From positions 124,001 through 188,000 of the forward strand of contig NZ_KB905465.1 in the NCBI RefSeq assembly GCF_000379465.1: 64,000 nt of DNA. Direction: 5' to 3'. The notes under the pieces were generated by a model that searched no databases, had not been told where the DNA came from, and saw nothing but the letters and a program-made list of their open reading frames with translations. Shown here in pieces: positions 5,285 to 54,350 of the stretch (its first letter is position 1; the number at the start of each line of letters is the position of its first letter). The translations under genes were made by a program, and so were the position numbers. This stretch comes from Sciscionella marina DSM 45152 (GTDB taxonomy: Bacteria > Actinomycetota > Actinomycetes > Mycobacteriales > Pseudonocardiaceae).

Positions 5285-6142
5285 ATGGAAGCCGAGCGAC
5301 GACGCCGGATCGTGGTGGGTGTCGATGACGGATCGGACAGTGCCCTCGCGGTGCGCTGGGCCGCCGCACACGCCGCCGCCGTCGGACTGCCACTACACTG
5401 CGTGTACGCAGAGTTCAATCCGTACACCATGGCCGCGGGCGACGCGGGGATCCCGCCCGCGCTCGATCTCGGGATGTCCAGATCGGATACCGACCGAGTG
5501 CTCAGCGACGCCATGCGCATCGCCAGCGAGGTCGCCCCTTCGCTCGACATCCGGGCGCACGCGGAACCGGCGAGCCCGGCAACCCTGCTGCTCGGCGAGG
5601 CGAAGATGTCCTCGCTTCTGGTGATCGGCAATCACGGCGCCGGCGTGCTCTCCGACCTGCTGCTCGGCAGCGTGTGCGGGACCGTGGCGGCGCGTTCGGC
5701 CTGTCCGGTGGTCGCGGTGCGCAGCAGGCTCACCGAGCTGGACCAGCTCGCCCCGGTCGTGGTCGGCGCGGACGGCTCCGAGGTCTCCGAGCGGGCGATC
5801 GAGTGGGCGCACAAGTTCGCCGCCTGGCACGACAAACCGCTGCGGGTGCTGCACGTGTGCCGTCGCGGGCGTGGTGACCTGGACCAGGCGCGGGCCTACA
5901 CCGAGCAACTGCTCGACCGCTGTGCACACCCGGGTGTCCCGGTCAGCACCGAGTTCGTGGACGGCGAACCGGCCGAGGTGCTCGCCGGTGAAGCGGAGAA
6001 CGCCTATCTGCTCGTGGTCGGGGCACGCGGGCACGGGGTGGCCTCGGGCCTGCTGACCGGCTCGGTTTCGCACGCGCTGCTGCGCCAGGCGCCCTGCCCG
6101 GTCGCCGTCGTTCGCAAGCAGGTGGTGCTGCAGCCGGTATGA
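5285..6142 (+). CDS. Tandem universal stress protein (two UspA domains)
   Basis: This is a roughly 285-residue cytoplasmic protein of two UspA domains. Each ends with the ATP-binding motif of the family: VIGNHGAG followed by LLLGSVCGTVA, and VVGARGHG followed by LLTGSVSHALL. Such proteins bind ATP and support survival under hypoxia or stress in actinobacteria. ATG 5285 gives the usual N-terminus before RRRIVVGVDDGSDS. An in-frame GTG at 5258 is possible. It is divergent from prpE and 45 bp upstream of secA2, so it may share its transcript. Confidence 0.85.
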   Translation: MEAERRRRIVVGVDDGSDSALAVRWAAAHAAAVGLPLHCVYAEFNPYTMAAGDAGIPPALDLGMSRSDTDRVLSDAMRIASEVAPSLDIRAHAEPASPATLLLGEAKMSSLLVIGNHGAGVLSDLLLGSVCGTVAARSACPVVAVRSRLTELDQLAPVVVGADGSEVSERAIEWAHKFAAWHDKPLRVLHVCRRGRGDLDQARAYTEQLLDRCAHPGVPVSTEFVDGEPAEVLAGEAENAYLLVVGARGHGVASGLLTGSVSHALLRQAPCPVAVVRKQVVLQPV

Positions 6143-22483: not shown

Positions 22484-22559
22484 GTGGGTGTAGCTCAGCA
22501 GGTAGAGCACCTGGTTGTGGTCCAGGAAGTCGCGGGTTCAAGTCCCGTCACTCACCCCA
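22484..22559 (+). tRNA. tRNA-His (GTG anticodon)
   Basis: The acceptor stem GTGGGTG pairs with CACTCAC at 22549-22555 with one G-T pair. The anticodon arm CCTGG-TTGTGGT-CCAGG carries GTG (His), the T-arm is CGGGTTCAAGTCCCG, and the CCA end is encoded. A G precedes position 1 (22483) and faces the C discriminator, giving the G-1:C73 pair that is specific to tRNA-His. The island described below starts directly after this gene. Confidence 0.97.
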
Positions 22560-24885: not shown

Positions 24886-24896
24886 GGCTTCGTTGT

Positions 24897-24955
24897 AGCG
24901 ATGGGGCTCGCTCATTGCCTCACCGGCCCTGCCGGTGAGACTGATGGCTCCTACT
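24897..24955 (+). promoter_or_regulatory. Fluoride riboswitch R2
   Basis: AGCGATGGGGCTCGCT forms P1. A perfect P3 hairpin CTCACCGGC/GCCGGTGAG follows, then CTGATGGCTCCTACT. The loop GGGGCT pairs with GGCTCC through G-C and G-U pairs. The strand GGCTCCTACT is also complementary over 10 positions (with G-U pairs) to GGTAGGAGCT, the SD of the ORF at 24990. This fits the crcB/fluoride consensus closely and predicts translational ON control. It heads a short ORF, a Nudix gene and an MFS gene. Confidence 0.9.
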
Positions 24956-24989
24956 GGTCTCCGGTGCCGTATCGGGAGGTAGGAGCTGC

Positions 24990-25265
24990 ATGCGGTTGTC
25001 GCGGTACGCGGTTCAGCGCGCCCGCCTGGCCTATGGGGATGATCAGGCCCGCTCTGCTGCGGTGCTCTTGACGGTCGGCACCAGATCCGCCCGGCGGTTT
25101 CCACCCGGCGTACTCGGTCCACCAGTCCCGTGCGCGGTACGGGCTCATCCGCACCGCAAGCCTTCGTGGTGGATGAACGGAACCGGAACACGGTCCTTGC
25201 GGGCAGTTGCCGGGACCATCCGGAAGCGAAAGGAGTGCGATCGTGGTCAACAAGGACGACGCTGA
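24990..25265 (+). CDS. Riboswitch-proximal short ORF, 91 aa
   Basis: ATG 24990 has AGGAG 4 nt upstream, exactly the segment that R2 can mask. The 91-residue product is Arg-rich (MRLSRYAVQRARLAYGDDQA at the start) with no recognised domain and only moderate codon bias. It overlaps the Nudix start by 23 bp. It may be a real small protein or a coupling ORF that carries ribosomes into the Nudix gene. I recognise no homologue. Confidence 0.45.
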   Translation: MRLSRYAVQRARLAYGDDQARSAAVLLTVGTRSARRFPPGVLGPPVPCAVRAHPHRKPSWWMNGTGTRSLRAVAGTIRKRKECDRGQQGRR

Positions 25266-25707
25266 TACCAATCTCCGGTGTTCTGTCGTTGTGTATCGCG
25301 GCGACGATGTTCTGCTCTGCCGGCGGCGTTCGGACTGGGTGCTGCCCGGCGGCACCCCTCGCAGACACGAAAGCACCGCAGCTGCGGCGCGGCGCGAAAC
25401 CGTGGAAGAAGCCGGTCTGCAAGTCGCCCCGACGAGGGTCGCTTTCGTCTTGGAGACGGTCAACACCGCAGCCGGTCACCATCTGGTCGAGATCGTTTTT
25501 CTGGCGCATATGGCCGAACACGGGACGGAACCCGTGCAGCGCGAGGACGGTCTCGTACCGCAGTTCGTGTCACTCGCCGAGCTGCACACGCTGCGCCTGA
25601 GTCCGCCGATCGGCGGACATATCCGTGCGCTGCACCGCCAGGCCGGGGCAACGGGCGCTTACCTGGGTAATGTCTGGCGACCGCAACCAGCCGAGGAGGT
25701 CGAGTAG
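25243..25707 (+). CDS. Nudix hydrolase
   Basis: This is a 154-residue protein. The Nudix box runs from GGTPRRHESTAAAARRETV through EEAGLQ (about residues 37-60) and matches Gx5Ex7REUxEExGU apart from a Thr at the U position. Such enzymes hydrolyse nucleoside diphosphates linked to another group, often removing damaged nucleotides or signalling molecules. GTG 25243 has AAAGGAG 9 nt upstream. It is second in the R2 unit and followed by the MFS gene after 33 bp. Confidence 0.85.
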   Translation: MVNKDDADTNLRCSVVVYRGDDVLLCRRRSDWVLPGGTPRRHESTAAAARRETVEEAGLQVAPTRVAFVLETVNTAAGHHLVEIVFLAHMAEHGTEPVQREDGLVPQFVSLAELHTLRLSPPIGGHIRALHRQAGATGAYLGNVWRPQPAEEVE

Positions 25708-32725: not shown

Positions 32726-32752
32726 CGGATGGAGACTGGACGGAGGACGGGC

Positions 32753-34309
32753 ATGTGCAGCGCACCCGGGGACACCTTCGCTTTCGCCGGTCTGCTCTTC
32801 GACCGGGTGGACGTGCGCGACCAGGCTCTGCGGTCCGCGCCTCCCGACTGCCTCACCGATCTGTGTCTCGATCAGGTGATCGAGACGATCATGCCCGGTG
32901 AGCAAGAGCCCGCGAAGGCGTTCTTCTACTGCCCCCAGCCGACCATCGAGGCGATCACCGCACGCCAGCAGCTCCTGCGGGACATCGAGCAGCCCTTTCT
33001 CTTCGACGCGTTCCAGACCTTCTGCACGGCGATCGGACGGGTGCGGAACCTTGTCGCTCAGGCCGGCCGCACCTACTATCGACGGGCCCGGGAGGCCCGG
33101 CTGCTCGACGCGGCGCAAACCTATTTCGCGACGGTACGCGAGCTGCACCGCCGGTTGTGCGCTGCCCAGCTGCACGCGACTCGACTGCGCACTCTGCGGC
33201 AGTGCCTGACCGGATATGTCGAATCGGCCTGGTTCAGGCGAGCTGAGCAGGCCGAAGCGCAAACTCGGGCGCAGCTGCGGGAGATCCGCTATTGCGTTCG
33301 GATCAAGGGGCAGCGAGTGCACGTCTTCGGCTACGAAGGCGAAGCCGACTTCAGCGCCACGGTCGCCGATCTCTTCACGAGACTGCATCCCGTCCGGCCG
33401 ACCGAATTCCCCGAGTCCCCCGATGAGACCTCGGCCATGGACCACGTGCAGGCCGCCATCCTCGATCGCGTCGCTCGCCTGTATCCAAGGGCCTTCTCCG
33501 CCCTCGACATGTTCTGTTCGGCGTATCCGGATCTCCTCGGCCCCGGGGTCGAGCGCCTCGATGCCGATCTGCGGTTCTGCCTTGCCTGCCTACGTTTCGT
33601 ACAAGACTTTCGTGCTGCCGGGTTCGCCTGGTGCTACCCGGAGGTCGTGCAGCGGCCCGAAACCGTGTACGCCAGCGGTTCCTTCGACCCTGCCCTGGCG
33701 CACCGGCTGCGCGCTACGGGAAATCCCATCGTCCGCAATGACTTCCACCTCTCCCCTGCCGAGCGGCTGATCGTGCTGACCGGTCCCAACCAGGGTGGTA
33801 AGACGACCTTCGCCACTTTGTTCGGCCAGTTGCACTATCTGGCGGGCCTGGGTCTTCCGGTTCCCGCCACCGCTGCCCGCCTCGCGCGATTCGACCGGAT
33901 ACACACGCATTTCGGGCGGCGCGAACATCTCGCCGATCTGCGAGGTGGTCTGGAAAGCGAGCTCCGGCATCTGCACCGGATCGCCGAGACGGCCACACCG
34001 GACAGCATCGTGATCTTGAACGAGGCTTTCAGCTCCACCAGCACCGCCGATGCCGTCTCTCTTGGGACACGCTTCATCCGGCTGCTCCTCGCGCGCCGAG
34101 TCCTCGGCGTCTACGTCACCTTCCTCGATGAGCTCGCCGCCGAGGACACCGGAATCGTCAGCATGATCGCCGAATTCGACACCGGGACTCCACCCGAACC
34201 CAGTTACCGCATCCGCCGCGGCCCACCGTGTGGCCGTCTGCACGCCAGCATGCTCGCCGCCCGCCACCGGCTCTCGTACCGGGATGTCATCGAACGGATC
34301 GCGCGATGA
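32753..34309 (+). CDS. MutS-like ATPase, type A (R6 unit)
   Basis: This is a 518-residue protein. The C-terminal MutS domain V ATPase is clear: Walker A GPNQGGKTT (about 344-352), a D/E box in SIVILNEAFSST (about 417-428) and a helix-rich lever region before it. There is no mismatch-recognition domain I, so it is not a repair MutS of the classical type. ATG 32753 has GGAGG upstream; ATG 32729 is possible. It overlaps the next gene by ATGA. A homologue sits at 52749-54329 and has the same partner gene, so A and B probably form a heterodimer. Confidence 0.85.
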   Translation: MCSAPGDTFAFAGLLFDRVDVRDQALRSAPPDCLTDLCLDQVIETIMPGEQEPAKAFFYCPQPTIEAITARQQLLRDIEQPFLFDAFQTFCTAIGRVRNLVAQAGRTYYRRAREARLLDAAQTYFATVRELHRRLCAAQLHATRLRTLRQCLTGYVESAWFRRAEQAEAQTRAQLREIRYCVRIKGQRVHVFGYEGEADFSATVADLFTRLHPVRPTEFPESPDETSAMDHVQAAILDRVARLYPRAFSALDMFCSAYPDLLGPGVERLDADLRFCLACLRFVQDFRAAGFAWCYPEVVQRPETVYASGSFDPALAHRLRATGNPIVRNDFHLSPAERLIVLTGPNQGGKTTFATLFGQLHYLAGLGLPVPATAARLARFDRIHTHFGRREHLADLRGGLESELRHLHRIAETATPDSIVILNEAFSSTSTADAVSLGTRFIRLLLARRVLGVYVTFLDELAAEDTGIVSMIAEFDTGTPPEPSYRIRRGPPCGRLHASMLAARHRLSYRDVIERIAR

Positions 34310-35865
34310 AGGTGTGGCTGCTGCACGCCGATCGCGACTCCGAGCAGGAGCCCGCGCAACCCTGCGATGCCGACACTCTCGCCGAAGACCTCGAACTGGG
34401 GACGCTCGTCGACGCGATGGCCGACGGCGACCCCTTCCTGGCGGCGACCGGACGGCGAATACTGTTGTCCAGCCGCACCGACCCGGACGAGCTGCGTTAC
34501 CGGCAGGCCGCCGTGCAGGACGCGATAGCACAACCCACAACCGTCGAACGGCTGTATCGTCTCGCGAGCCAAACCCTGGAACAACGCCGCCGCATCTGGC
34601 GGTCCCTGCTGCACAAACCGGAGACGATCCTGCCGTGGGCACTCGACACACTCGAGGTCTATCTCGACACGTTCGAGGAGCTGGCGCCGGTTCTCGATCA
34701 GGCGGATCGGTTCCGGTCACCGGCCTTCACACAGCTGTTCGATCGCCTGACCGGCGAGCTCGAGCAGGGTTACCTGAGCCGGGTCGGCACGATCTCGCAC
34801 ATGCTCCGGATGCGCTCCGGGGTATTGTTCAGCGCGACACTGGGGCGTGGCCACACCGGCAGCGACTACCTGTTGCATCAACCCCGGGACTGGCCGGCTC
34901 GGGCGCGCACAGCGGCTTCGCCGCGACGGAAGACCTACAGCTTCTCGATACCCGATCGCGACGAGGCCGGGGAACGCGCACTATCGGCGATGCGCGACCG
35001 GGCCCTGAGCACGGTCGCCGCCGTCGTCAGCCAGGTCGACGAGCACCTGTGCCTGTTCTTCACCACGTTGCGGCGCGAACTCGCCTTCTATCTCGGTACT
35101 GTGCGCCTGCACCGGCGGCTCACCGCTCTCGGGCAACCGACGTGTTTTCCCGTTGTGCACACCGTGAACGATCGGTCCTGGTCCGCGCGGCAACTCTACG
35201 ATCCCTGCCTGGCTCTGCACCAGGACAAAGCTGTGGCCGGTAATGACCTCCATGCCGACCACCGTGCTCTGGTGCTTGTCACCGGCGCGAATCGCGGCGG
35301 TAAGTCGACGTTCCTGCGTGGCCTCGGCGTGGCTCAGCTGATGACCCAGTGCGGAATGTTCGCACCGGCCGAGGAACTGGAGATCAGTATCTGTCCCGGG
35401 ATCGCGACCCACTATCGACTTGGTGAGAATCGGAGTCGCACGCGCGGGAAACTCGACGAGGAATTGCACAGGCTTTCCCGGATCGTCGAGCACGCCGAGC
35501 CCGGTGCACTGCTGCTGTGCAATGAATCGCTGGCGGCGACCAACGAACGAGAGGCCGCGCTGATCGGTTCCGAGCTGATCGCCGCCCTGGTCGAACGAGG
35601 CATCAGAATCGTGTTCGTGACCCACTTCTTCGAGCTGGCGAACAAGCTGACGCATCAGCATGGCTCCGGAGTGCTGTGCCTGCGCGCCGAGCGGCGCGCC
35701 GACGGGGAACGGACCTTCCGCATGACCGAGGGCGAGCCTTCGCCCACCAGTTTCGGCCAGGATCTCTACGCCCGGTTCTTCGGCGGCGAATCAGCCGATC
35801 CTGCCTGGTCCGAAACCGGGAGACCGGGATCCGCCGTGGTGTGGAACGGATCCGGGCGATCATGA
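34306..35865 (+). CDS. MutS-like ATPase, type B (R6 unit)
   Basis: This is a 519-residue protein. Walker A GANRGGKST (about 327-335), the LLLCNESLAATNEREA box (Walker B and signature-like) and VTHFFELANKL (H-loop) identify a MutS-family ATPase. The N-terminal half is helical with LRYRQAAVQD, a motif shared with type A and with the other type B copy at 51244-52752. The start ATG overlaps the stop of the type A gene, and its own stop overlaps the dynamin-like start. DNA or another ligand is unknown. Confidence 0.85.
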   Translation: MKVWLLHADRDSEQEPAQPCDADTLAEDLELGTLVDAMADGDPFLAATGRRILLSSRTDPDELRYRQAAVQDAIAQPTTVERLYRLASQTLEQRRRIWRSLLHKPETILPWALDTLEVYLDTFEELAPVLDQADRFRSPAFTQLFDRLTGELEQGYLSRVGTISHMLRMRSGVLFSATLGRGHTGSDYLLHQPRDWPARARTAASPRRKTYSFSIPDRDEAGERALSAMRDRALSTVAAVVSQVDEHLCLFFTTLRRELAFYLGTVRLHRRLTALGQPTCFPVVHTVNDRSWSARQLYDPCLALHQDKAVAGNDLHADHRALVLVTGANRGGKSTFLRGLGVAQLMTQCGMFAPAEELEISICPGIATHYRLGENRSRTRGKLDEELHRLSRIVEHAEPGALLLCNESLAATNEREAALIGSELIAALVERGIRIVFVTHFFELANKLTHQHGSGVLCLRAERRADGERTFRMTEGEPSPTSFGQDLYARFFGGESADPAWSETGRPGSAVVWNGSGRS

Positions 35866-37791: not shown

Positions 37792-37842
37792 GGCGATGGG
37801 GCTCGCCAACAACCGCGGCGCTTCGCTGCTGACGGTCCCTGG
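37792..37842 (+). promoter_or_regulatory. Fluoride riboswitch R7
   Basis: GGCGATGGGGCTCGCC (P1), the conserved AACC, P3 GCGGCG/CGCTGC, then TGACGGTCCCTGG. Loop GGGGCT pairs with GGTCCC. GGTCCCTG pairs with CAGGAGCC in 7 of 8 positions; that segment holds the SD of the pyrophosphatase-Usp gene. It is a close match to the fluoride consensus. Confidence 0.88.
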
Positions 37843-37876
37843 TCGATGCGGTAGTGCGCGGTCAGGAGCCACGTGG

Positions 37877-38911
37877 ATGATGCTGGGCGAGCAACGTATG
37901 GTGGACGTCGTAGTCGAACAGCCGCGAGGTCACCGCCACCGATACGAGGTCGGCCATGATGGCCTGAAAAAGCGTCTGCAGGGAATAATCCAGACTCACG
38001 CCCGATGTCCCGGTGAATACGGCTATATCGTCGGAACCGCGGACTCCGGTGGGCCGCTGCACGCCGTCGTGCTGACCGAGGAAGCCACTTTTCCCGGTTG
38101 CGTCATCACGGCCCGGCCGATCGGTGTGCTGTGTTACGAACGAGATATGCGCGCATCCGTGATCGTCGCGGTTCCCGCGGTTTATTCCTCCTATCAGGAA
38201 ATCGAGGACATCGACTCCTTGCCCGGGCACCATCGGACCGAACTGCGACAGCGGATCGAGCGGCTGACGGGGGTACAGCCCGATAGGGACGCGACCGTCA
38301 CGAAGTGGGGAGACCACACTATGGCACGGCGAATCATCAACAAGGCCTTGGACGATTCCGGCGAACAGAACACGGCTGTTCGATCGGCCGCAGATCAGCC
38401 CGCTGCGGAACCCCGGGGGCATCCGGGCGACCGGGGAGCTACGGCCCCTCGTTTCGCCGCGCACGCGGTTCTGGGTTTCGAGCCGCATCATGAGGGTGAC
38501 ACGGTGCTGGCGGCCGGAGTGGATCTCGCGTCCCGTCTGGGGCTCACCTTGCACGTGGTGCATGCCATCAACCTCACCGACTATCCGGTCGATCCGGATT
38601 CCGCGAACTGGGAACGTGACGGTCAGTCCCATGTGGACGCCGACCGGCGCCGAGCCGAGAACATGCTGCGGCGATCCGGGATCACGTGGACCTATCGGGC
38701 CGATCGTGGCGACCCGGTACAGCTGCTGCGCGGTGTGGCGGACGAATACGACGCGTTGATGTTCATCGTCGGCAGCTCCGGAGAAGGGCCGAGCCGTGTG
38801 GTGCGGCGCCTCTTGCAATCACCGTCGGTCTCGCATGCCTTGATCAACCGGACCCACAGACCGGTGGTGGTGGTCCCCCCGCATGCCCTGGAACACACGG
38901 CACCCAGCTGA
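37877..38911 (+). CDS. Degenerate inorganic pyrophosphatase fused to UspA domain
   Basis: This is a 344-residue protein. Residues 8-135 align by eye with family I soluble pyrophosphatases: VVVEQPRGHRHRYEV, CPGEYGYI, PLHAVVL, FPGCVITARPIGVL, VIVAVPAVY. The catalytic metal ligands are gone: the DGDPxD motif reads SGGPLH (57-62), the later two Asp and a Lys are not present, and KYE is RYE. Residues about 190-335 are a UspA domain with a VGSSGEGPSRVV nucleotide loop. The frame is continuous across the junction. AGGAG lies 8 nt before ATG 37877. Pyrophosphatase is a classic fluoride target, so a sensing or scaffold role is possible. Confidence 0.8.
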   Translation: MMLGEQRMVDVVVEQPRGHRHRYEVGHDGLKKRLQGIIQTHARCPGEYGYIVGTADSGGPLHAVVLTEEATFPGCVITARPIGVLCYERDMRASVIVAVPAVYSSYQEIEDIDSLPGHHRTELRQRIERLTGVQPDRDATVTKWGDHTMARRIINKALDDSGEQNTAVRSAADQPAAEPRGHPGDRGATAPRFAAHAVLGFEPHHEGDTVLAAGVDLASRLGLTLHVVHAINLTDYPVDPDSANWERDGQSHVDADRRRAENMLRRSGITWTYRADRGDPVQLLRGVADEYDALMFIVGSSGEGPSRVVRRLLQSPSVSHALINRTHRPVVVVPPHALEHTAPS

Positions 38912-38977: not shown

Positions 38978-39889
38978 CTATGGGACCTCGGCCCCCGAGT
39001 GTTTGCCGGGGACGGATACCGACGCCGATTCCTGCTTTGTGCGCCACCGATACCAGAACGGCGATCGTCCTCCGGGGGCACGACGCGCGATAGCCGCCCG
39101 GGACAAGGCTTTGATGATCGTAGCGCCGGCTTGTCCGGTGATCATCTCGATCTGGAGCGCGGACAGACCGCAGTCGGTGTACAGGGCATCGAGTGCCTCA
39201 CGCGTGAGAACGACCGGGCTCGGAAAGCGTTCCCAGACGGGTCTTCCCGGCGGGACAAGGGGAATACCGAACCGGCGCAGCGTCTCGAGAACCGCTTCGT
39301 CTTCATACAGTGCCGAGATGAGTTCGACACCATCGGAGCTCTCGGCGTGGTTCCCACCGAAGCGAACCGCCACACCGGCGTCATGCGCCGTGCGCAGCGT
39401 GCTTTGATAGGGAGCCTGCAGCCGCTCGCTGATCTCGAGCAGCGACAAGGCACATTCGTCATGGAGATAGGCGAGCGCGGCGACGTCGATCTTGTGCCGG
39501 TCGGCTCGGTCCAGACCGCCGCGCGGGCGCGCCGCTATCCCGGCCTGGCGAAGCCGGGTACGGACGCGGCGTTCCGGTATTTCGAACAACGCGGCGATCT
39601 GCTTCGAGGACAACCGTTCCTGCTCGTACAGTCGTCGCAATACGGTGGAAAACCCGGGCGGTTCGGCCACCCGGCGAGCCGGGCGAGCACGTCCGGCACC
39701 TCTCGATGCGACGGAAACGCCTGCCTCCTCGAGTAGGCGAGTCGCGCGCCGGCGATCGATACCGAGATCCACGGCGATCTGTCGTATCGATTCCCCTCGG
39801 CATGTGTAAGCATGCACCACGGCGTCTTCCAGCGTGTCGATGCTGGCACAGACACAGGAAAAGCCGTCCACAATGGCCTGACTACCCAC
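38978..39889 (-). CDS. Protein with four HTH-like repeats (possible regulator)
   Basis: This is a 303-residue protein. Four HTH-like units are visible: ESIRQIAVDLGIDRRRATRL (about 33-52), LSSKQIAALFEIPERRVRTR (93-112), LSLLEISERLQAPYQSTLR (149-167) and LSALQIEMITGQAGATIIKA (244-263). The first, second and fourth end in a G/A-(I/V)-rich turn followed by a basic RxxG patch. No ligand domain is obvious. GTG 39889 follows GGAGGGG. R8 lies about 30 nt upstream. It may regulate other genes of the island or bind DNA structurally. I know no named family. Confidence 0.6.
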   Translation of the reverse strand: MGSQAIVDGFSCVCASIDTLEDAVVHAYTCRGESIRQIAVDLGIDRRRATRLLEEAGVSVASRGAGRARPARRVAEPPGFSTVLRRLYEQERLSSKQIAALFEIPERRVRTRLRQAGIAARPRGGLDRADRHKIDVAALAYLHDECALSLLEISERLQAPYQSTLRTAHDAGVAVRFGGNHAESSDGVELISALYEDEAVLETLRRFGIPLVPPGRPVWERFPSPVVLTREALDALYTDCGLSALQIEMITGQAGATIIKALSRAAIARRAPGGRSPFWYRWRTKQESASVSVPGKHSGAEVP

Positions 39890-39918
39890 GAGACTACCCC
39901 TCCGGCAGCGGTCTTCCG

Positions 39919-39971
39919 GGTAGAAGCCATCAGGACGTCACGGTGTCCGGTTCACGGTGGGCCTCATCACC
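39919..39971 (-). promoter_or_regulatory. Fluoride riboswitch R8
   Basis: Minus strand: GGTGATGAGGCCCACC (P1), AACC, P3 GGAC/GTCC, then TGATGGCTTCTACCC. Loop GAGGCC pairs with GGCTTC, a coordinated change compared with the GGGGCT/GGTCCC copies. CTACCC is complementary to GGGTAG next to the SD of the HTH-repeat gene. Confidence 0.87.
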
Positions 39972-40133
39972 GTCGAGACTTCTTTCTTACTAGGCGGATC
40001 GAGGCGTCGCAAGTACTGTCGTAGAGTTCGTTCTCACGTCTACTCCGTTCGGTTTCGCACGAAACACGGGCATGGCAACGGATCGGGTGCTCGAAGAGCC
40101 GAATCCGTGGATCGGCCGGTACGAGACGGTCGG

Positions 40134-41536: not shown

Positions 41537-43582
41537 CTAGTTCAGCGCGACGACGACAGCGAGCACGGCAACGAAAGCGATGAGCATATAGCTGACATAG
41601 GCGTCGAGCCTGCCGTTCTGCAGCCGTTTCACGATATGGATCAGTCCCAGGAACGGCTTGAGCAGCGGCCGGTAAAGCAATTTCTCGACAAGCTCGGCCA
41701 CGTCACTGGTGTAACCCAGGTGCGCGGTCTCGATGTCATGGTCCTGGTCGGTCTGCTGCCCGCCGGTCTCGGCCTCGAGGACGTGCAGCTCCGAGCGGGT
41801 GAGCAGGACATTGGCGAGAACTTTGCGGGTGGGATTGGCGAATCCGAAAGGAGTGTATTGGTTCTCGCCTGCCACACCGCTGGTGGCCGAACGCCAGGCC
41901 GGGACCGATCGTATTCGCCATACCCGGTGACGGCCGAACGCGATGGCGATAGCCAGGACGCACAGCGCCAGCACGGGAATCGCGATGATCAGCCAGGACG
42001 GGGAGAGTATCGAGAAATCCGGGTAGACCGGCTGTACTATCCACGGCGACTTCGATACACCTTCCAGGACATGCCGCGGCACGATCTCGCTCAGCCCGGT
42101 GGTCACGACGGTGAGTTCGAGCGGAGTGACCGCCGCGATGGCGAGGCAAGCGAATGCCAATACGAGAAGTCCGATACGGGCGACACCGCCGGCATCGAGT
42201 TGCCGGTGCACCTCGTGCCAGCCGCGCGGCCCGAGAACGGTGAGGCCGACGATCCGGACGAACGCGACGGCGGCGAATCCCACGGTGAGGGCCACGAGCG
42301 CACCGCTGATCGCGAGTGGGAGCGCGAAATACAGGTGGCCGACCCGGAACTGCTGCATCAGGGCCTCGAGCAGAAACCATTCGGAGACGAAGCCCACGGT
42401 CAGCGGCAGCCCGGCCAGCGTGACGGCACCGACCGCAAGGCCGGCGCCGCTGGTGCGCAAGCGGTGCCCGACACCACGCAGTTGTTCCAGTTCAACGGTC
42501 CCGGTGGCGGCTTCGATCGTCGCGGTACTGCAGAACAGCAGCGACTTCGCGATCGCGTGGGCGATCATCTGCAGGGTGGCGGCCACCAGGCCGATGCCGA
42601 TCAGCTGTGGTTTCGCCAGGGCGGCACCGACCAGCGCCACCGCGAAACCGACGGTGATGAGCCCACCGTTCTCGACACTGGAGTAGGCGACGACTTCGGT
42701 GAGCCTGGTCTGCACCGTGGTGTGGACGATGCCCAGCACCGCCGTGCACGAGGCGAGCAGCAGCAGTACCACGACGAGCCACACCGGTGGCCGCCCGAGC
42801 ACCTCCAAGGTGCGCCACATGCCATAGAAACCCACGTTCACCGCGACTCCGGCCAGCAGTGCACGCAACGGTCCGGGGGCGGCCGCGTACCCTCGTGGCA
42901 TCCAGACATGGAACGGGATCACTCCGACCTTGACCGCGAATCCGGCCAGCAGCAGCGCATACGCGGCGTCCCGGACACCACCGCCGGAGACGTGGGTGAA
43001 GCTGCTGATCGTGAAACTTCCACTGCGGCTGGAGAGCAGCAGAAAGCCCAGCAGCAGAAAGGCTCCGCTGATCTTGCCGAGAATGACGGTCACGTTCGCG
43101 GCGTTCGGGCGCCCCGCGCGCCCGCGGTCGTGCGCGACGATCAGGTAGAAGGACAACGTCAACGCCTCCCAGGCGAACAGGAAGCAGAACACGTTGTCGG
43201 CGGACAGAATCGTCGCGATCGCCGCCAGGGCGATACTCTGCGCGCTCGCGAGCCCGCGGGCTCTTACCTGACCCGGACGGCGTGCCCAGTGCACGGTCAC
43301 CACGCTCACCAGAGTCGCGACACCGAACACCAATACCAGGAACAGCCCGGAAAGCCGCCCCACGACCAGTCGACTGTCGCCGAACCCGAAGAAAGCATCA
43401 AGATGCAGGGTGACGCCGTGCCCGGCCATGGCCTCGGCACCGGCAAGGGTGAACAGGACGCTCGCCACCGCGGCCAGCAGGTACGGTGCCGGCCGCAGGC
43501 TCGGGCGCGAGACACCGAACACGACGTCGACCACGAGCGCGAGCCCACAGCAGGCGTATCCGGCGATGAAGACGGCGTTCAT
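41537..43582 (-). CDS. HyfB/HycC-like proton-pumping membrane subunit
   Basis: This is a 681-residue membrane protein with about 15-16 helices. It belongs to the Mrp/NuoL family: the conserved Lys in GFAVKVGVIPFHVWMPRGY and the Glu in FLFAWEALTLSFYLI mark the antiporter core. A C-terminal extension with a lateral-helix-like segment (TSDVAELVEKLLYRPLLK) is present. In hydrogenase-4 and Ehr complexes this subunit translocates H+ or Na+. The start overlaps the NuoB-like gene by 4 bp. It is the last structural gene of the complex before enolase. Confidence 0.85.
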   Translation of the reverse strand: MNAVFIAGYACCGLALVVDVVFGVSRPSLRPAPYLLAAVASVLFTLAGAEAMAGHGVTLHLDAFFGFGDSRLVVGRLSGLFLVLVFGVATLVSVVTVHWARRPGQVRARGLASAQSIALAAIATILSADNVFCFLFAWEALTLSFYLIVAHDRGRAGRPNAANVTVILGKISGAFLLLGFLLLSSRSGSFTISSFTHVSGGGVRDAAYALLLAGFAVKVGVIPFHVWMPRGYAAAPGPLRALLAGVAVNVGFYGMWRTLEVLGRPPVWLVVVLLLLASCTAVLGIVHTTVQTRLTEVVAYSSVENGGLITVGFAVALVGAALAKPQLIGIGLVAATLQMIAHAIAKSLLFCSTATIEAATGTVELEQLRGVGHRLRTSGAGLAVGAVTLAGLPLTVGFVSEWFLLEALMQQFRVGHLYFALPLAISGALVALTVGFAAVAFVRIVGLTVLGPRGWHEVHRQLDAGGVARIGLLVLAFACLAIAAVTPLELTVVTTGLSEIVPRHVLEGVSKSPWIVQPVYPDFSILSPSWLIIAIPVLALCVLAIAIAFGRHRVWRIRSVPAWRSATSGVAGENQYTPFGFANPTRKVLANVLLTRSELHVLEAETGGQQTDQDHDIETAHLGYTSDVAELVEKLLYRPLLKPFLGLIHIVKRLQNGRLDAYVSYMLIAFVAVLAVVVALN

Positions 43583-44358
43583 CGTGCTCGCCCCGATTCC
43601 TCCGGCAGGCGTCCCATTGCCAGCAGTAGCGCGAACAACAGGCTGAACGGCGAGGGTGGCGCGCCGGGGACCCAGATATCCACATCCGCCAGTTCGCCGA
43701 CCCCGGCCGATACCGCGTACGAGGGAGCGAGGAGTCCACCGCTGATCGCATCGACCCCGGCGGCGATCACGACCGCCGGGCGTGGCGTCGCTTCCAGACT
43801 ACGGCGCACCGGCTCCGCCATACCGTGCGCGCCCGCCCCGGTCAGCAGCAACACGTCGGCGTGCCTGGGGCTGGGGGTGAAGAAGATTCCGAGCCGGTGC
43901 ACGTCGTAGACGGGATTCAACAGCGCGAGGATCTCCCATTCCTCGGTTCCGTCCGATCCCGCGTCGACATGGCGGACATGGATGGACCGGCGAAAGGCCC
44001 GGGTACGCTCGGCGAGTGCCGTGCGCACACGATCGAGCTGGTCATCGTCTTCCTCCAGCGGTGGAACGGACAATCCGGAACGCCGGAGGGTCGCCGTTTC
44101 ACTGCCCGGCCGCCATTCGAACACATCCGGCCGTTCGCGAACACACAGTCCACAGAGGACACATCGTCCGGCATCCACTCGTACCGGCCCGGTACTGATC
44201 GCCCCGGTCGGGCACAGGCGGCCGAGATCCCCGTCCTCCGAAGGCGGATCCTCCCTCGGCACCACCCTGGCAGGGAAAGAGTTCGCATAGTGGTCCGGCC
44301 GCCGCGGGTACCGTGTCGTGACGATTCCCTCGCGCAGACCGCGGAAGACCCATGGCAT
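43579..44358 (-). CDS. NuoB/HyfI-like subunit fused to a ferredoxin domain, N2 cysteines lost
   Basis: This is a 259-residue protein. Residues 45-80 hold a ferredoxin-like site (Cys49 in RLCPTGAI, Cys66, Cys69, Cys72 in RCVLCGLC) sufficient for one [4Fe-4S]. Residues 125-245 match HyfI/HycG by IHVRHVDAG, ALLNPVYDVHRLGI, SPRHADVLLLTG and PGAPPSPFS. All four cysteines that bind cluster N2 in relatives are replaced: SDGTEE for SCNGCD, GVDAISG for GDCACSG and PGAPP for PGCPP. Electron transfer through N2 is therefore not expected. It abuts the large-subunit gene (its ATG directly follows the TAG). Confidence 0.8.
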   Translation of the reverse strand: MPWVFRGLREGIVTTRYPRRPDHYANSFPARVVPREDPPSEDGDLGRLCPTGAISTGPVRVDAGRCVLCGLCVRERPDVFEWRPGSETATLRRSGLSVPPLEEDDDQLDRVRTALAERTRAFRRSIHVRHVDAGSDGTEEWEILALLNPVYDVHRLGIFFTPSPRHADVLLLTGAGAHGMAEPVRRSLEATPRPAVVIAAGVDAISGGLLAPSYAVSAGVGELADVDIWVPGAPPSPFSLLFALLLAMGRLPEESGRAR

Positions 44359-45843
44359 CTACAACACCGCCCCGGCGATCGAGAGCCCGAAGCTCGCTTC
44401 GATGAACGGGAAGTCCGTCAGGACATCCCCGCGAAAGGTCGATGCGAAAACGGCCAGATTGTGAAAGGACGCCGAGCGCGGTGCACACCGTTCGATGCGC
44501 CCGTCATCGTTGACCGCGACCACATAGAGCACCTCGCCCTGCGGTGCTTCGGCCCAGCCGACCGCCCGCCCGGCAGGCACCCGCAGCGGCACGCGCAGAC
44601 TGTCGCCACCAGCCAGTTCCAGCAATTCCGTCGCCTGTCGGATCAGCGCGACCGAGTCGTTGACCTCCTCCCAGCGCACCTGGAGCCGAGCCATCGCATC
44701 GTCTCCGCCCCGCCGGTCCCCGACCACCGGCTCCAGCCGTGGGTAGGCATCGTAGGGCCGCACCCAGCGCGCATCGTCATAGACTCCCGACGCCCGCCCG
44801 ACCGGGCCGAGCGCACCGTGCACCCGCGCCTGTTCATGCGACAGCGATCCCGTACCGCGTAAGCGGTCCAGGAACGACGGAGTGTCCATCAGCGCGTCCG
44901 CGTCCCCCCGGATGCCCTCGGCCAGCGCATCCAGCCGCGCACGCAGATGTGCCGGGGGCATCCGGGGTACAGCCGTCACACCACCGGGCAGCACGACGCC
45001 ACGGCCGAACCGGCTGCCGCACATTGCGCCGATCAGTCGCAGACAGCGCTCCTTGTGCAGGCCGAACCGGGCGACCGCCACCGCAAGGCCGGCGGCGTCC
45101 GCGAGTTTCATCGCCACGTCCAGGTGGTTGGCGATCCGTTCCAGCTCCGCATGAACGACCCGGACCAGCGCGGCCGCCGGGGGCACGGTCACGCCCGCGA
45201 GCCGTTCCACCGCATGGGCGTAGGCCAGCGCATGGGCTACCGAAGCGACGCCCTCGACGCGTTCGGCGAGCAGCATTCCGTGGTGTACCGACAAGTCCTG
45301 GAATCGGTTCTGCACACCCCGGTGCTTCGCATAGGGCCGAACGTTCAGGTGTGGGATGTCCTCACCCGGGGTCTCGATCACATACTCCACCGACTCGAAC
45401 ACCCCGGAACGGACCGGTCCGTGCGGGATGGTGAAGACGCCGGTACCGAGCACTCGCTGCGGGATGGCGCGTTCATCCGGGACCACCCGGTCCGGCGAGC
45501 TCGACGCGCCAGGACAGGGCAGCGGGTCGTACTGCTCGTCATGCGGCAGGATCAGCGGATCGAGGCGCGGATGGTTCTCCGCGACGACACCGAACAGGTC
45601 GTGCAGGGCGCGCTCGTACCAGAACGCTGGTTTGATCTCGCGGCTCATCGTCGGGTAGCGCACCGCACCGGGCGCCAGTTCGGCGTCGAGCAATTCGACA
45701 TCCTCGGAAGTGGCCAGCATCCCGGTGATGGTGACTCCTTTGGTCGGCGCTCCGCTGCCGAACAGCCCGGCGAACCGGTCACCGGAGGCCAGCCGCTCGG
45801 TCATCGCCTCGAGCAATGCCGCCGCACCGTCGACCCCGTTCAT
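44359..45843 (-). CDS. HyfG/HycE-like large subunit (NuoC-NuoD fusion) without NiFe site
   Basis: This is a 494-residue protein. The N-terminus carries the 30-kDa (NuoC) signature FWYERALHDLFGVVAENHP (about 74-92). The NuoD-like part follows (NVRPYAKHRGVQNRF, LERIANHLDV). In hydrogenases RxCGxC binds nickel; here that place reads AERVEGVAS (193-201). The C-terminal DPCxxC is missing as well (DFPFIEASFGL). So neither pair of nickel-binding cysteines exists. This is typical of Ehr (hydrogenase-related) complexes. ATGA-type overlap with the upstream hyfF-like gene. Confidence 0.83.
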   Translation of the reverse strand: MNGVDGAAALLEAMTERLASGDRFAGLFGSGAPTKGVTITGMLATSEDVELLDAELAPGAVRYPTMSREIKPAFWYERALHDLFGVVAENHPRLDPLILPHDEQYDPLPCPGASSSPDRVVPDERAIPQRVLGTGVFTIPHGPVRSGVFESVEYVIETPGEDIPHLNVRPYAKHRGVQNRFQDLSVHHGMLLAERVEGVASVAHALAYAHAVERLAGVTVPPAAALVRVVHAELERIANHLDVAMKLADAAGLAVAVARFGLHKERCLRLIGAMCGSRFGRGVVLPGGVTAVPRMPPAHLRARLDALAEGIRGDADALMDTPSFLDRLRGTGSLSHEQARVHGALGPVGRASGVYDDARWVRPYDAYPRLEPVVGDRRGGDDAMARLQVRWEEVNDSVALIRQATELLELAGGDSLRVPLRVPAGRAVGWAEAPQGEVLYVVAVNDDGRIERCAPRSASFHNLAVFASTFRGDVLTDFPFIEASFGLSIAGAVL

Positions 45844-47300
45844 GACGCGCCTCCGAGTTCGAGTGCGCCCTGGTGCAACAGCGCGGCCAGTGCCTCCGGC
45901 GGGTGGATGCCGAGCAGCAGCAGCACGAGGATCCCGGCCACCATCGGCGCCACCATCCATCCGCTCGGTTCGCCGCGCAGCAGAGCCTGCCCACCGCCGG
46001 GCGTGTACACCATGCGAGTGGTCGCGATCGAAAGACCGAAGAACGCCAGGGTGACCAGTCCGACCAAGACCACGGCGGGAAGGTGCGTGCCGGAACCGAG
46101 CCCCCCGGCCACGATCTGGAACTCGCTGCGGAAGATGCCGAATGGGGGAAACGCGGACAACGCCAGGATGCCGAACAGGAAAAGCGGCGCGGTCCACGGA
46201 AGCACGTCCAGTCCCGACCTGATGGCGGCGATGTCCTTGGTTCCGTACTTGCGCACCAGAACCCCCGCACCGAAAAAGGCGTTGCCCTTCGCCGCGGCGT
46301 GCGCGATGACGTGCAGCAGAACACCGGCCATCGCGATGGGGGCGCCGAAACTCACCCCGATGGCCAGTATCCCCATGTGCTCGACGCTCGAATAGGCCAG
46401 CAGGCGTTTGACATTACGTTGCTCGATCAGATAAAGCGCGGCCAGCAGCAGCGAGAGCACACCGAAGACCAGCATGACCGTGCCGGAGAACCGCGGCCCG
46501 AGCGTGCCGACGGCGACCTGGTAGTAGCGCAGGATCGCGTAGAAACTGACCGCGAGCAGGGAACCGGAGAGCAGCGCGGACACCGGCGTCGGCGCCTCCG
46601 AGTGGGCGTCCGGCAGCCAGGTGTGTACCGGGAACAGACCCACCTTGGTGCCGAATCCGACGATCGACAACACGAATGCCAATTGCACGGCCGTGTGCGG
46701 CAAGGCATGGCCCGCTTTCAGCAGGGGACCGAAAGCAAGGTCGAAGGACTGCCCCAGCGTGGTGCTCCCCGCGTAGTACATCACGATCGTCGCCAGCAGT
46801 CCGAGCCCGAGCCCGGCCGAGGCCAGCAGCACGTATTTCCACGAGGCCTCCGCGGCCGAATCCGTCCGATCCGCGGCCACCAGCAAGGCGGAGACCACGG
46901 TGGTGATCTCCACCGCCACCCACAGCAGGGCGAGTCCGTCGACGAGGGGCGCGCACATCATCGACCACGCGAACAGGTTCAGTCCCAGATAAAAGCGACG
47001 GCTATAGCCCGATGGGTCGGTGTTCTCCGGATCGCTGCGCAGGTAACCGATCGCGTAGATCGAGGCGGCCGCGTACAGAAAAGTCGTGCCGAGCAGGAAC
47101 ACCACCGAAACAGCGTCGGCGCGGAGGAAACCGAATTGCAGCGCACCGTGCGACACGTGCGGCATCAACACGATCGCCAGTCCGAACGAGCCCGCTCCGA
47201 GCAACGCCGTCACGGTCTCGGTTGCCCGCTGGTGTCCCAGCAGCGCGACCGCCGCACCCAGCAGGGGCACGGTCGTCAGCAGTACGAGTACCACGTTCAT
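45840..47300 (-). CDS. HyfF/NuoN-like proton-pumping membrane subunit
   Basis: This is a 486-residue protein with about 14 helices. Antiporter-family motifs include VDGLALLWVAVEITTVVSAL (Glu of TM5), GFGTKVGLFPVHTWLPDAHS (Lys of TM7 and broken helix) and LLAYSSVEHMGILAIG. It is the second of two antiporter-like pumps in the complex. ATG 47300 is 4 bp from the preceding gene. It probably carries ions but needs a driving reaction from the peripheral arm. Confidence 0.87.
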   Translation of the reverse strand: MNVVLVLLTTVPLLGAAVALLGHQRATETVTALLGAGSFGLAIVLMPHVSHGALQFGFLRADAVSVVFLLGTTFLYAAASIYAIGYLRSDPENTDPSGYSRRFYLGLNLFAWSMMCAPLVDGLALLWVAVEITTVVSALLVAADRTDSAAEASWKYVLLASAGLGLGLLATIVMYYAGSTTLGQSFDLAFGPLLKAGHALPHTAVQLAFVLSIVGFGTKVGLFPVHTWLPDAHSEAPTPVSALLSGSLLAVSFYAILRYYQVAVGTLGPRFSGTVMLVFGVLSLLLAALYLIEQRNVKRLLAYSSVEHMGILAIGVSFGAPIAMAGVLLHVIAHAAAKGNAFFGAGVLVRKYGTKDIAAIRSGLDVLPWTAPLFLFGILALSAFPPFGIFRSEFQIVAGGLGSGTHLPAVVLVGLVTLAFFGLSIATTRMVYTPGGGQALLRGEPSGWMVAPMVAGILVLLLLGIHPPEALAALLHQGALELGGAS

Positions 47301-47303
47301 CGA

Positions 47304-47978
47304 TCAGCCCCGTAGTTTCGTCAGATGCTCAGTGGACAGTGACCGGGCACGTCGGTGGTGCACCCGCATCAGCACACCGAAGACCACCACCGCTACCAGC
47401 AGATCGAACAGGAACGCCACCTCCAGGATCAATGGCAGCCCGGCCGCGACCACCAAGCTGGCCAGGGAGACCCCGTTCTCCAGGGAGAAGAAGCCCACCG
47501 CTTGGGAAACCACGTCACGGCGCACGATCATCAACACGAACGACACCGCGATCACCGCCACCGCCAATCCCAGCGCGGTGGTCGGCAACGCAGGACTGGC
47601 GATATGGAACCGGCTGGTCGCGAAAAAGGCCAGGACCGCGACCACCACGGCGACGAGAACCTCGCTGGCCACGCCGAGCACACCACTGCCGGCGATCTCG
47701 GTCCGTGTCTGGCGCAGCTGCCGCATCACGACCCAGGGGACGACGACGACCTTCAGCGCCAGCGAGAGAGCCGCGAGCACGTACAACTCGGGTACGTCCC
47801 GCCCCCAGGCCACGACCGCGGCAAGTACGGAGACGAGCAGAGACTGGGCCGCGTACAACCGCATCTGTGCCCGCAGCAGCGCGGCGCGCAACATCGCGAA
47901 CTCGCTGAGCAGCACGAGCACGGCGAGAACATTCGCGACACCCGCGTAGGTCCCGGGCGGAGTAACCGTCGGTGCCAT
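47304..47978 (-). CDS. HyfE-like membrane subunit
   Basis: This is a 224-residue protein with six to seven hydrophobic helices, including SFVLMIVRRDVVSQAVGFFS and LENGVSLAS, the HyfE signature related to NuoK/MrpC. ATG 47978 directly follows the stop of the NuoH-like gene. It is a small hydrophobic linker subunit of hydrogenase-4-type complexes. No unusual feature is seen. Confidence 0.8.
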   Translation of the reverse strand: MAPTVTPPGTYAGVANVLAVLVLLSEFAMLRAALLRAQMRLYAAQSLLVSVLAAVVAWGRDVPELYVLAALSLALKVVVVPWVVMRQLRQTRTEIAGSGVLGVASEVLVAVVVAVLAFFATSRFHIASPALPTTALGLAVAVIAVSFVLMIVRRDVVSQAVGFFSLENGVSLASLVVAAGLPLILEVAFLFDLLVAVVVFGVLMRVHHRRARSLSTEHLTKLRG

Positions 47979-48932
47979 TCATCCGCCTCCGAAATACAAG
48001 GTGCACACCGCCAGCACGGCAAGCAGGAACGCGGCCGCCACGAATTCGGTGATCTTGAACAGCCGAAGTTTGGCGAACGTATTGTCGATCACCGCCACGA
48101 CGCCACCGAGCACACATGATTTCCCGAGCAGCGCGAGAATGGCGAGTGCCACGGCCAGCAGCGACCGGTCACCGGCCAGTCCCCACGGAGCCACGAAGAC
48201 GTTGATGAACAGAATGTAGAGAATCAACTGCTTCATCGTCGAACCCCACCGCAGCAGGGCGAGGAACGGCCCCGAGTGTTCGAACACACGGACTTCTTCG
48301 AGCATACCGAATTCGTTGGTCCCGGAATGCGTTTCGACCGGTATACGGCCGGTCTCGTAGAGAATGACCAGCAACAGTCCGGCCGCGGCGAGCAGGTGTG
48401 CCGGGCGCACGATCTGTTCGGACGAGGCACGTACCGTGGCGGCCAGAGCGTACGGCTTGTCCGTTCCGGTCACCAGCGCCACCGTGAAGAACACGAACAG
48501 CATCACCGGTTCGGTGATGGCGCCGAAGGTCTTCACCCGGCTCGCGCCGAGCTGCGCATACGGCGCGCCGGTCTCGGTCGCCGCCACCGCCACCAGAAAG
48601 CTCGCCAGCCCCAGGATCATGCCACCGCCGAGAATGTCCCCCATGTCACCGAGTGGCAGATCGAAACTGGTCAGCACCGGAATCAGCATCGGCACGGTCA
48701 GATAGCAAGCCATGGCACCGACCGGAGCGGCGAGAAACACCCAGCTCGTGCCGTGTGGGACCAGGGTTTCCTTGGCGAACAGCTTCCGCAGGTCGTAGTA
48801 GGGCTGCAGTATCCGGGGCCCGCGCCGACCCTGCAGGCGCGCCTCGACACGGGCGATCACACCACTGATCCCGGGCGCCGCGCACAGCACGGTCAGCATC
48901 TGCAGGGCCTGGATCAGCGGCTCGGGGACCAT
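47979..48932 (-). CDS. HyfC/HycD/NuoH-like membrane anchor subunit
   Basis: This is a 317-residue protein with about eight helices. NuoH-family blocks are GRRGPRILQPYYDLRKLF (about 36-53), ETGRIPVETHSGTNEFGM (about 195-212) and KQLILYILF. Several Glu residues of the ion channel (E-channel) are kept. It anchors the peripheral arm. It is the first structural gene of the R9 operon, 9 bp after a 35-codon leader ORF. Confidence 0.85.
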   Translation of the reverse strand: MVPEPLIQALQMLTVLCAAPGISGVIARVEARLQGRRGPRILQPYYDLRKLFAKETLVPHGTSWVFLAAPVGAMACYLTVPMLIPVLTSFDLPLGDMGDILGGGMILGLASFLVAVAATETGAPYAQLGASRVKTFGAITEPVMLFVFFTVALVTGTDKPYALAATVRASSEQIVRPAHLLAAAGLLLVILYETGRIPVETHSGTNEFGMLEEVRVFEHSGPFLALLRWGSTMKQLILYILFINVFVAPWGLAGDRSLLAVALAILALLGKSCVLGGVVAVIDNTFAKLRLFKITEFVAAAFLLAVLAVCTLYFGGG

Positions 48933-49049: not shown

Positions 49050-49098
49050 GCACGCCTCCTCTACCGTCAAGCTGGTGAGTGCGCGCACCCACCAGTGT

Positions 49099-49150
49099 GG
49101 TAGAGGCCATCAGCGGGAGAATTCCCGCGGTTGCGGCGAGCCCCATCGCC
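49099..49150 (-). promoter_or_regulatory. Fluoride riboswitch R9 (near-consensus)
   Basis: Minus strand: GGCGATGGGGCTCGCC (P1), AACC, P3 GCGGGA/TCCCGC, then TGATGGCCTCTACC. Loop GGGGCT pairs with GGCCTC. CCTCTACC is perfectly complementary to GGTAGAGG overlapping the leader SD. The layout is nearly identical to the crystallised Thermotoga fluoride aptamer as I remember it. A promoter candidate TTGCGC-18-GACACT lies at 49181-49210, leaving about 30 nt before P1. Confidence 0.93.
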
Positions 49151-49277
49151 GTCCGGCGAACCGGCGTTCGATTCCCCCTCAGTGTCGACCATGACCCGCT
49201 GTTCGCGCAAGGCGACACCACGGCCGGGGATGATCTCGTCCTCGTTCGAAGAGGTCACCGAGGCGATCGGACGCACC

Positions 49278-51243: not shown

Positions 51244-52752
51244 TCATGGCGACCGTCCCGCGGAATCGAATATCATGCGATACAGATCCTGACCATGACT
51301 CGTGGGCCTGGGCGCACCGGCCACCAGCCGGAAAGAGCGGTTTCCGTCCGCGTCTCGGTCTGCCCGAAGAAAGGTCACGGCTCCCGTCCCCCGCCGGGCA
51401 AGAGCAGCGGACAGCGCGTACATGTGCGTCACGCAGAACACCCGAACCCCGGCAGCACACAGCGCTTCGAGCACCTCGAGTGCGATCTCGGAGCCTTCGC
51501 TTTCGTTCGTGGCGGCAAAGGATTCGTTGAACAGCACCATGCTTGCCGCGGTAGCGGACTCGGTGATGTTCCGCAGTCTTCGCAATTCCTCGTCGAACTT
51601 CCCGCTTTCCATCTCATCGTCCTCCTCTCGCCGGTAGTGCGTGAAGATCCGGTCGCACACACTCGACGAAAGACTCTCGGCGGTGACGAACAGGCCGGCC
51701 TGGGCCATCAGCTGCGCGATTCCGCAGCTACGCAGGAAGGTGGATTTCCCTCCCTGGTTGGCGCCGGTCACGATCACCAGCGGCCTGCCGCTCGATTCCA
51801 CGTCATTGCCGACGACCCCGGACCCGGACCGCAGCAGTAGTACGACATCCCGCAGGTCTCGCGCGGCGAACGCCAGTTCCGCTCGTTGCCGCGGAACGGG
51901 GAACGAAAGCGGTGCCCCCGCGTCTGTCAGTGCGGTGTGCAGATTCAGGCATCCGAGGTAGAAAGCCAGGTCGGTGCGCAACGCGACCAGGAAATCGTGG
52001 ACATGATCGGCCGACTCGGCCAGGGCATGCACCGCGTTTTCGATACCGCGCGCCCGGAGCTCGCTCAAGGCACGAGCACCCGATTCGTCGCGCTCGTCTA
52101 TCTTGAACGTGTAACCGGTGGCCGACCCACCGGTGACTCGTTCCCACCAGCCCGGCTTCTGCTTCTCCGGCATGTGCAGTCGATACGCGCGGCCCTGATT
52201 CTCGTCCCCAAGGGCCGCGCTGAGTTGTACGCCGGAGCGTAATTCCATCCGGCGCAGATGCTTTCGCATCGTATCGAGGTATTCATCGCTCAACTCCTGC
52301 GTGAACAGATCGAACAGCTCACCGAATCCGTCCGACTCGAAATCGTGTCGTGCCCGCTCGGCCAGTGAGCGCAGGTTCGTCAGGCCCTCGAGGAAGATTC
52401 CGAGCACTTCCACCGAGCGTGACCGCATCGATTCTATGTGTTTCGTGAACAACCCGCGCCATACCTGTTTTTCCCGATTCAGGCAGTCCACGGCGCCGTG
52501 GTAGAGTTCGCGAACGGTAGACTGGTTTTGCAGACAATCCCGCAGTACTGCCTGACGATAGCGGATTTGATCGACGGTTCTCAGCGAATCCGGCAGTAAT
52601 TGCCGAACGACACCGCGGATGAATTCGTCACCGGACGCCATGGCGTCGAAGAGGTCATCGAGTCCGAGGTCGTCCACGAGCTCTTGATCGAGTTCGCCGT
52701 CACGCCGCCGAGCCGGTGACGCGCCCTGGTGATTCAGCAGACACGACTTCAT
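51244..52752 (-). CDS. MutS-like ATPase, type B (R10 unit)
   Basis: This is a 502-residue paralogue of the gene at 34306-35865. Walker A GANQGGKST (about 326-334), MVLFNESFAATNESEG (Walker B region) and CVTHMYALSAALAR (H-loop) are present. The helical N-terminus with IRYRQAVLRD is shared. ATGA overlap with the type A gene upstream. It has no mismatch-recognition domain. With type A it forms the same ordered pair as in the R6 unit. Confidence 0.85.
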   Translation of the reverse strand: MKSCLLNHQGASPARRRDGELDQELVDDLGLDDLFDAMASGDEFIRGVVRQLLPDSLRTVDQIRYRQAVLRDCLQNQSTVRELYHGAVDCLNREKQVWRGLFTKHIESMRSRSVEVLGIFLEGLTNLRSLAERARHDFESDGFGELFDLFTQELSDEYLDTMRKHLRRMELRSGVQLSAALGDENQGRAYRLHMPEKQKPGWWERVTGGSATGYTFKIDERDESGARALSELRARGIENAVHALAESADHVHDFLVALRTDLAFYLGCLNLHTALTDAGAPLSFPVPRQRAELAFAARDLRDVVLLLRSGSGVVGNDVESSGRPLVIVTGANQGGKSTFLRSCGIAQLMAQAGLFVTAESLSSSVCDRIFTHYRREEDDEMESGKFDEELRRLRNITESATAASMVLFNESFAATNESEGSEIALEVLEALCAAGVRVFCVTHMYALSAALARRGTGAVTFLRADRDADGNRSFRLVAGAPRPTSHGQDLYRMIFDSAGRSP

Positions 52753-54329: not shown

Positions 54330-54350
54330 CGGCACTCCTTCCACCTCGTG

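Follow-up and report, generated by a model that had tools for sequence, protein, structure and literature searches.

What a pyrophosphatase homologue that has lost its active site could be doing in front of a stress protein domain, behind a fluoride riboswitch, is the question raised by a single gene of Sciscionella marina DSM 45152. Inorganic pyrophosphatase (PPase) is a fluoride-sensitive enzyme and enolase is another target of fluoride. Fluoride riboswitches often precede extra copies of fluoride-inhibited enzymes, including PPase and enolase, according to a published account (PMC11139923). The gene was analysed within a window, meaning the whole stretch of 64,000 nucleotides on contig NZ_KB905465.1, to which positions refer unless another locus is named.

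Pfam searching placed a PPase homologue (PF00719 Pyrophosphatase, 80.3 bits against a cut-off of 23.5, E 1.7e-22, profile positions 1–150 of 153) and, following it, a universal stress protein (Usp) domain (PF00582, 50.8 bits against a cut-off of 24, E 3.4e-13) in one open frame of the + strand, as the initial annotation had proposed. The coding sequence is best read from the ATG at 37877 to 38911 (+) and encodes 344 amino acids, with a ribosome-binding site AGGAG found by direct reading at 37864–37868 (+), 8 nt ahead of the ATG. The end at 38911 had been placed correctly; the start at 37792 is out of frame and runs into stops, and 37790/37792 was rejected in favour of 37877 because these bases are covered by the fluoride aptamer and the ribosome-binding site points to 37877. 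A domain homologous to family I PPase but lacking the active site (37907–38353, +; PF00719, active-site table and domain model) is followed by a probably flexible linker (38354–38434, +), where pLDDT was low in the full-length model as it was in the whole PPase half, and by the Usp domain (38435–38908, +). The start-codon list contains no in-frame ATG, GTG or TTG in the linker. GC content by codon position in the PPase part (0.68/0.44/0.72) was similar to that of adjacent genes.

The active site was evaluated by aligning the fusion with E. coli PPase, whose reference sequence is identical to 4um4_A, and 29 relatives at 14 active residues in E. coli numbering. Eleven of the 14 were replaced in the fusion (K29R, R43G, Y51C, D65S, D67G, D70H, D97R, D102A, K104V, Y141L and K142T), leaving only E20, E31 and Y55, and all 14 were retained in 24 of 24 reference PPases. 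At positions 65, 67, 70, 97 and 102, which we take to be the metal-ligand Asp residues, S, G, H, R and A are found in the fusion and D in every reference; at the presumed phosphate- or pyrophosphate-binding positions K29, R43, K104, Y141 and K142 the fusion has R, G, V, L and T. The alignment with E. coli PPase confirmed what had been read from the letters alone, namely replacement of every alignable metal-ligand Asp (all five), RYE for KYE and SGGPLH for DGDPLD. Letters assigned to the fusion in the D97–K104 loop, the second metal loop, vary with the placement of a one-residue gap that a second alignment puts elsewhere; the loop contains one E and one D. Relative to the PPase of Actinomycetospora endophytica (L061) the domain has two single-residue deletions, one in each metal loop. 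In the helix that presumably joins PPase trimers through H136, F137, H140 and D143, the fusion carries H136Q and F137R where the references shown keep H136 and F137; H140 and D143 are likewise not kept in the L061 PPase and are given little weight. Judged on these residues, the fusion is a PPase homologue without catalytic residues, in which pyrophosphate hydrolysis is predicted to be absent. It has the Pfam family, a whole-domain alignment and the predicted fold in common with E. coli PPase and M. tuberculosis Rv3628 (4z71/1wcf), and differs from family I PPases in general in its 11 replaced active residues, in metal loops that are both one residue shorter and in the C-terminal Usp domain.

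Structure prediction returned a PPase-like rather than an unrelated fold for this half. The domain model, with nine sequences in its alignment, reached a pLDDT of 81.3 and a pTM of 0.82; it matched M. tuberculosis PPase (4z71) with a TM score of 0.79 and, in a second structure comparison, with Z 20.6 and an rmsd of 3.0 over 158 residues, a match that rests partly on the PPase rows included in the alignment. In a full-length model made without PPase rows, confidence was lacking for the PPase half (block pLDDT 24–51), and the Usp half was for the most part well modelled. Combined two-domain alignments misaligned the domains and were left out of the models.

The extent to which the PPase half resembles a decaying sequence was investigated by simulation. 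The L061 PPase gene was randomly mutated to the fusion's distance from the PPase consensus in 400 runs. The profile score of the fusion, 95.1 bits, compared with 70.4 +/- 9.8 in the runs and was reached in 2 of 400, and its hydrophobic core, intact in 36 of 40 columns against 29.0, was also reached in 2 of 400. Twelve further settings (four start genes by three base compositions, 300 runs each) reached the fusion's fold score and core in 0–2 runs per setting. As random decay rarely arrives at these values, the fold looks kept. The loss of active residues exceeds the neutral expectation only weakly: three were retained in the fusion against 6.6 in the runs, as few being seen in 19 of 400 and, in the further settings, in 7–13 of 300 runs from L061 and 49–92 of 300 from other starts. 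Fisher tests of kept against lost residues were not significant (p 0.07–0.18 and p 0.054). All of these runs start from a substitute for the true ancestor (L061 or a different PPase), and part of the same signal would also arise if the PPase half had first spent a long time as a divergent but still working enzyme. Since one genome only has the fusion, constraint between orthologues is not measurable. The pattern argues for a fold that was maintained without catalysis, which one sequence cannot prove.

The leader of the gene contains a fluoride riboswitch aptamer (RF01734, 37783–37848, +) that spans model positions 1–64 of 64 and ends 28 nt 5' of the start codon. It scored 32.8 bits in cmscan, just below the gathering score of 34, with E values of 1.9e-7 in 401 bases, 1.4e-5 in a 30-kb scan and 9.4e-7 in the whole genome. 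The earlier placement of the gene under a fluoride riboswitch stands. No signal emerged when the leader was folded freely (z −0.23). Downstream, the nearest likely gene (38978–39889) lies on the opposite strand and is convergent, so that the fusion is probably a single-gene unit and the only gene behind its switch. That neighbouring gene (−), immediately behind a fluoride aptamer at 39914–39980, encodes a product with several helix-turn-helix matches and may add another tier of fluoride regulation.

The 8.5-Mb genome has eight RF01734 matches, four of them above the cut-off, and every one falls within 24888–56885 (no strand assigned). This 32-kb stretch, which may be an acquired fluoride island, also holds enolase, CrcB, DUF190, a dynamin-like GTPase and a YaaH-family transporter. 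Among its other genes are a NUDIX protein (25207–25707, +) behind a sub-threshold fluoride aptamer (24888–24960), two pairs of adjacent MutS domain V (MutS_V) proteins, on opposite strands (32729–35865 and 51244–54344) and a complex-I/hydrogenase-like membrane cluster (41537–48932) behind a fluoride riboswitch at 49094–49159. GC content is slightly lower within the island, 0.63–0.67 against 0.66–0.70 outside in 4-kb bins, and a tRNA gene (22484–22556) precedes the start of the island by about 2.3 kb. MutS and formate hydrogen lyase genes have been linked to the fluoride riboswitch motif (PMC2864571), pyrophosphatase, enolase and formate hydrogen lyase have been linked to fluoride riboswitches (PMC11139923), and Enterobacter cloacae FRM has a fluoride-induced ppaC-uspA-eno operon behind a fluoride riboswitch (PMC5533749). 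Given these published fluoride-linked PPase, Usp, enolase, MutS and formate hydrogen lyase genes, the island itself is of an already known kind. The E. cloacae FRM operon resembles the fusion locus in having PPase, Usp and enolase genes behind the switch and is unlike it in that the genes are separate and the PPase is annotated as manganese-dependent (ppaC; PMC5533749).

The Usp half belongs to a distinct, fluoride-associated subfamily, recognized in a 15-row alignment by the block LHVVHxxDLxDYPIDPDxxDWE. The region of the ATP motif reads GSSGEGPSRVVRRLLQSPS in the fusion, and the usual motif of ATP-binding Usp proteins, which we take to be G-2x-G-9x-G(S/T), is absent; PS or RS replaces the expected GS in 14 of the 15 rows. 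The domain had been described as a stress nucleotide-binding domain, of which the Usp assignment (PF00582) holds and the nucleotide-binding part lacks the usual motif. The mycobacterial tandem Usp TB31.7 (2jax), presumably Rv2623, counts among the closest relatives of the subfamily with a solved structure and differs from the fusion in having two Usp domains and no PPase part. Scanning species genomes with the Usp subfamily, and not with the PPase half, gave 19 loci, in whose examined stretches a crcB match was found seven times, enolase three times and PPase once; RF01734 was above the cut-off in six of the nine loci, out of 19, that were scanned for it.

The one PPase-bearing locus among the 19 is that of A. 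endophytica, and it carries the components of the fusion as separate genes. Its PPase retains 14 of 14 active residues and ends at its own stop; its Usp, 51% identical to that of the fusion, is a gene in a different frame with its own AAGGAGG. Upstream of the PPase lies an RF01734 match (5847–5911 of that locus) with a YaaH-family gene in between, and the locus is like that of the fusion in its riboswitch and in its nearby enolase and YaaH-family genes. L061 is the complete PPase closest by identity to the fusion (38.7%), the other 23 references being 25.8–32.3% identical; identities of 40.4% to a fluoride-linked PPase fragment (L034) and 34.8% to a paralogue (L079) were also obtained. L061 itself is 56.7–62.0% identical to most references and 45.6–50.6% to E. 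coli, L020 and L088. In a tree from which L034 was left out the fusion stood beside L061 with weak support, a position that is unsure because its branch is very long. A normal PPase, scoring 197.2 bits, is encoded elsewhere in the same genome (C2), and the fusion is 29.7% identical to this housekeeping enzyme. The L034 PPase (6695–7200 of its locus, G003), which is split by an apparent frame break, adjoins enolase and RF01734 and was not among the 24 references.

Protein searches for further fusions covered overlapping sets of 60 relatives, 390 family, 397 order and 394 class genomes, with the best five candidates per genome considered in the latter three sets at cut-offs of 1e-20, 1e-25 and 1e-25, respectively. 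No second PPase–Usp fusion was found in the relatives searched or among these best five candidates per genome. A read-through match in G028 was rejected as an ordinary 167-aa PPase. Plasmid searching matched 113 records, none covering at least 80% of the fusion query, and the fusion had no match among viral contigs. The fusion was thus seen in a single genome in these searches for the domain pair; in the literature, where coverage of subscription journals was thin, no paper was found on a PPase–Usp fusion, an inactive family I PPase fusion or a PPase pseudoenzyme.

Degenerate PPases were sought with PF00719 in 386 family genomes (among the matches listed), followed by 44 genomes picked by eye that had at least two matches. 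In these 44, the lowest full-length second copies scored 112.0, 130.5, 136.3 and 156.5 bits, compared with 82.9 for the fusion. Short weak matches (L083–L086) proved to be located in other proteins. Second PPase copies L077, L078 and L079 (G243, G361 and G248) have the replacements Y51F, D67E, D97T or I, D102E and K142R and are possibly altered or inactive PPases. They are like the fusion in being second copies with altered active residues and unlike it in retaining D65 and D70, and the stretches scanned around them contained no Usp match or RF01734.

The main rival to a functional two-domain protein gives importance to the Usp alone: the PPase half would be a decaying in-frame leader, or the Usp would be produced separately from an internal ATG at 38321. 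The PPase half does look accelerated, its identity to L061 being below that of L061 to most references, no PPase occurs in the examined stretches of 18 of the 19 loci with this Usp, and GGGGAG precedes the internal ATG. Set against this are a profile score and hydrophobic core in excess of neutral decay, the fact that GGGGAG is also made up of the codons for W-G-D in the PPase part, the position of the best ribosome-binding site ahead of the PPase half, directly after the aptamer, and a linker that offers the Usp no start codon; on balance we regard this reading as somewhat unlikely. Sequencing or assembly errors might also have created the fusion or its divergence, the genome being a draft of 86 contigs. 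With a 344-codon open frame of coding-like base composition, and because the PPase half departs from the nearest complete PPase at about 61% of residues while its frame stays unbroken, errors are a very unlikely source and receive next to no credence.

A dead protomer might alternatively enter housekeeping PPase hexamers or occupy their partners under fluoride. The same fold is predicted for the PPase half, both proteins are encoded in one genome and the island also holds enolase as a further fluoride target, while the low identity to the housekeeping enzyme and the H136Q and F137R changes in the presumed trimer helix, which speak mildly against co-assembly, make such a regulator or shield quite unlikely. 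The related proposal that the back-up copy has become a dead, metal-free fold which, tethered to Usp, binds the partners of the housekeeping PPase or its subunits and controls pyrophosphate metabolism under fluoride stress is doubtful, though it deserves slightly more credit. Sensing of pyrophosphate, suggested earlier for this protein, is disfavoured because the presumed pyrophosphate-binding residues R43, K104, Y141 and K142 have been lost along with the metal ligands. More broadly, binding of pyrophosphate, a nucleotide or a metal-fluoride complex in the old active site could draw on the remaining E20, E31 and Y55, on R at position 29 and on the E and D of the second metal loop; both one-codon deletions within the domain fall in metal loops, all metal Asp and most pyrophosphate-binding residues are gone and the Usp half is without the usual ATP motif, and a ligand sensor of this sort is improbable.

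The explanation that we prefer, tentatively and at a little short of an even chance, is a fluoride-induced stress protein in which the PPase-derived part serves, without catalysis, for binding or as a scaffold, the gene having arisen from an ancestral PPase and Usp gene pair. In a fluoride island, this pair would have been a back-up PPase gene with a Usp gene behind it, and the two would have merged into one gene in this lineage. Catalysis would then have been lost from the PPase half, with the half retained as a folded, non-catalytic module at the N-terminus of Usp. When fluoride rises, the aptamer would permit expression of a single fusion mRNA, and the PPase-derived part of the product would most likely bind another protein or set the oligomeric state; the product would neither hydrolyse nor sense pyrophosphate. 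What we infer for the fusion is its induction by fluoride, the sequence of events and a role in scaffolding or binding.

In this organism the extra PPase is dead, with its fold apparently kept, and shares one protein with a Usp of the kind whose gene lies beside the PPase gene in a relative. Should the fusion be made and functional, PPase in fluoride islands can serve beyond spare catalysis, and the gene would offer a compact test of the role of Usp in fluoride stress.
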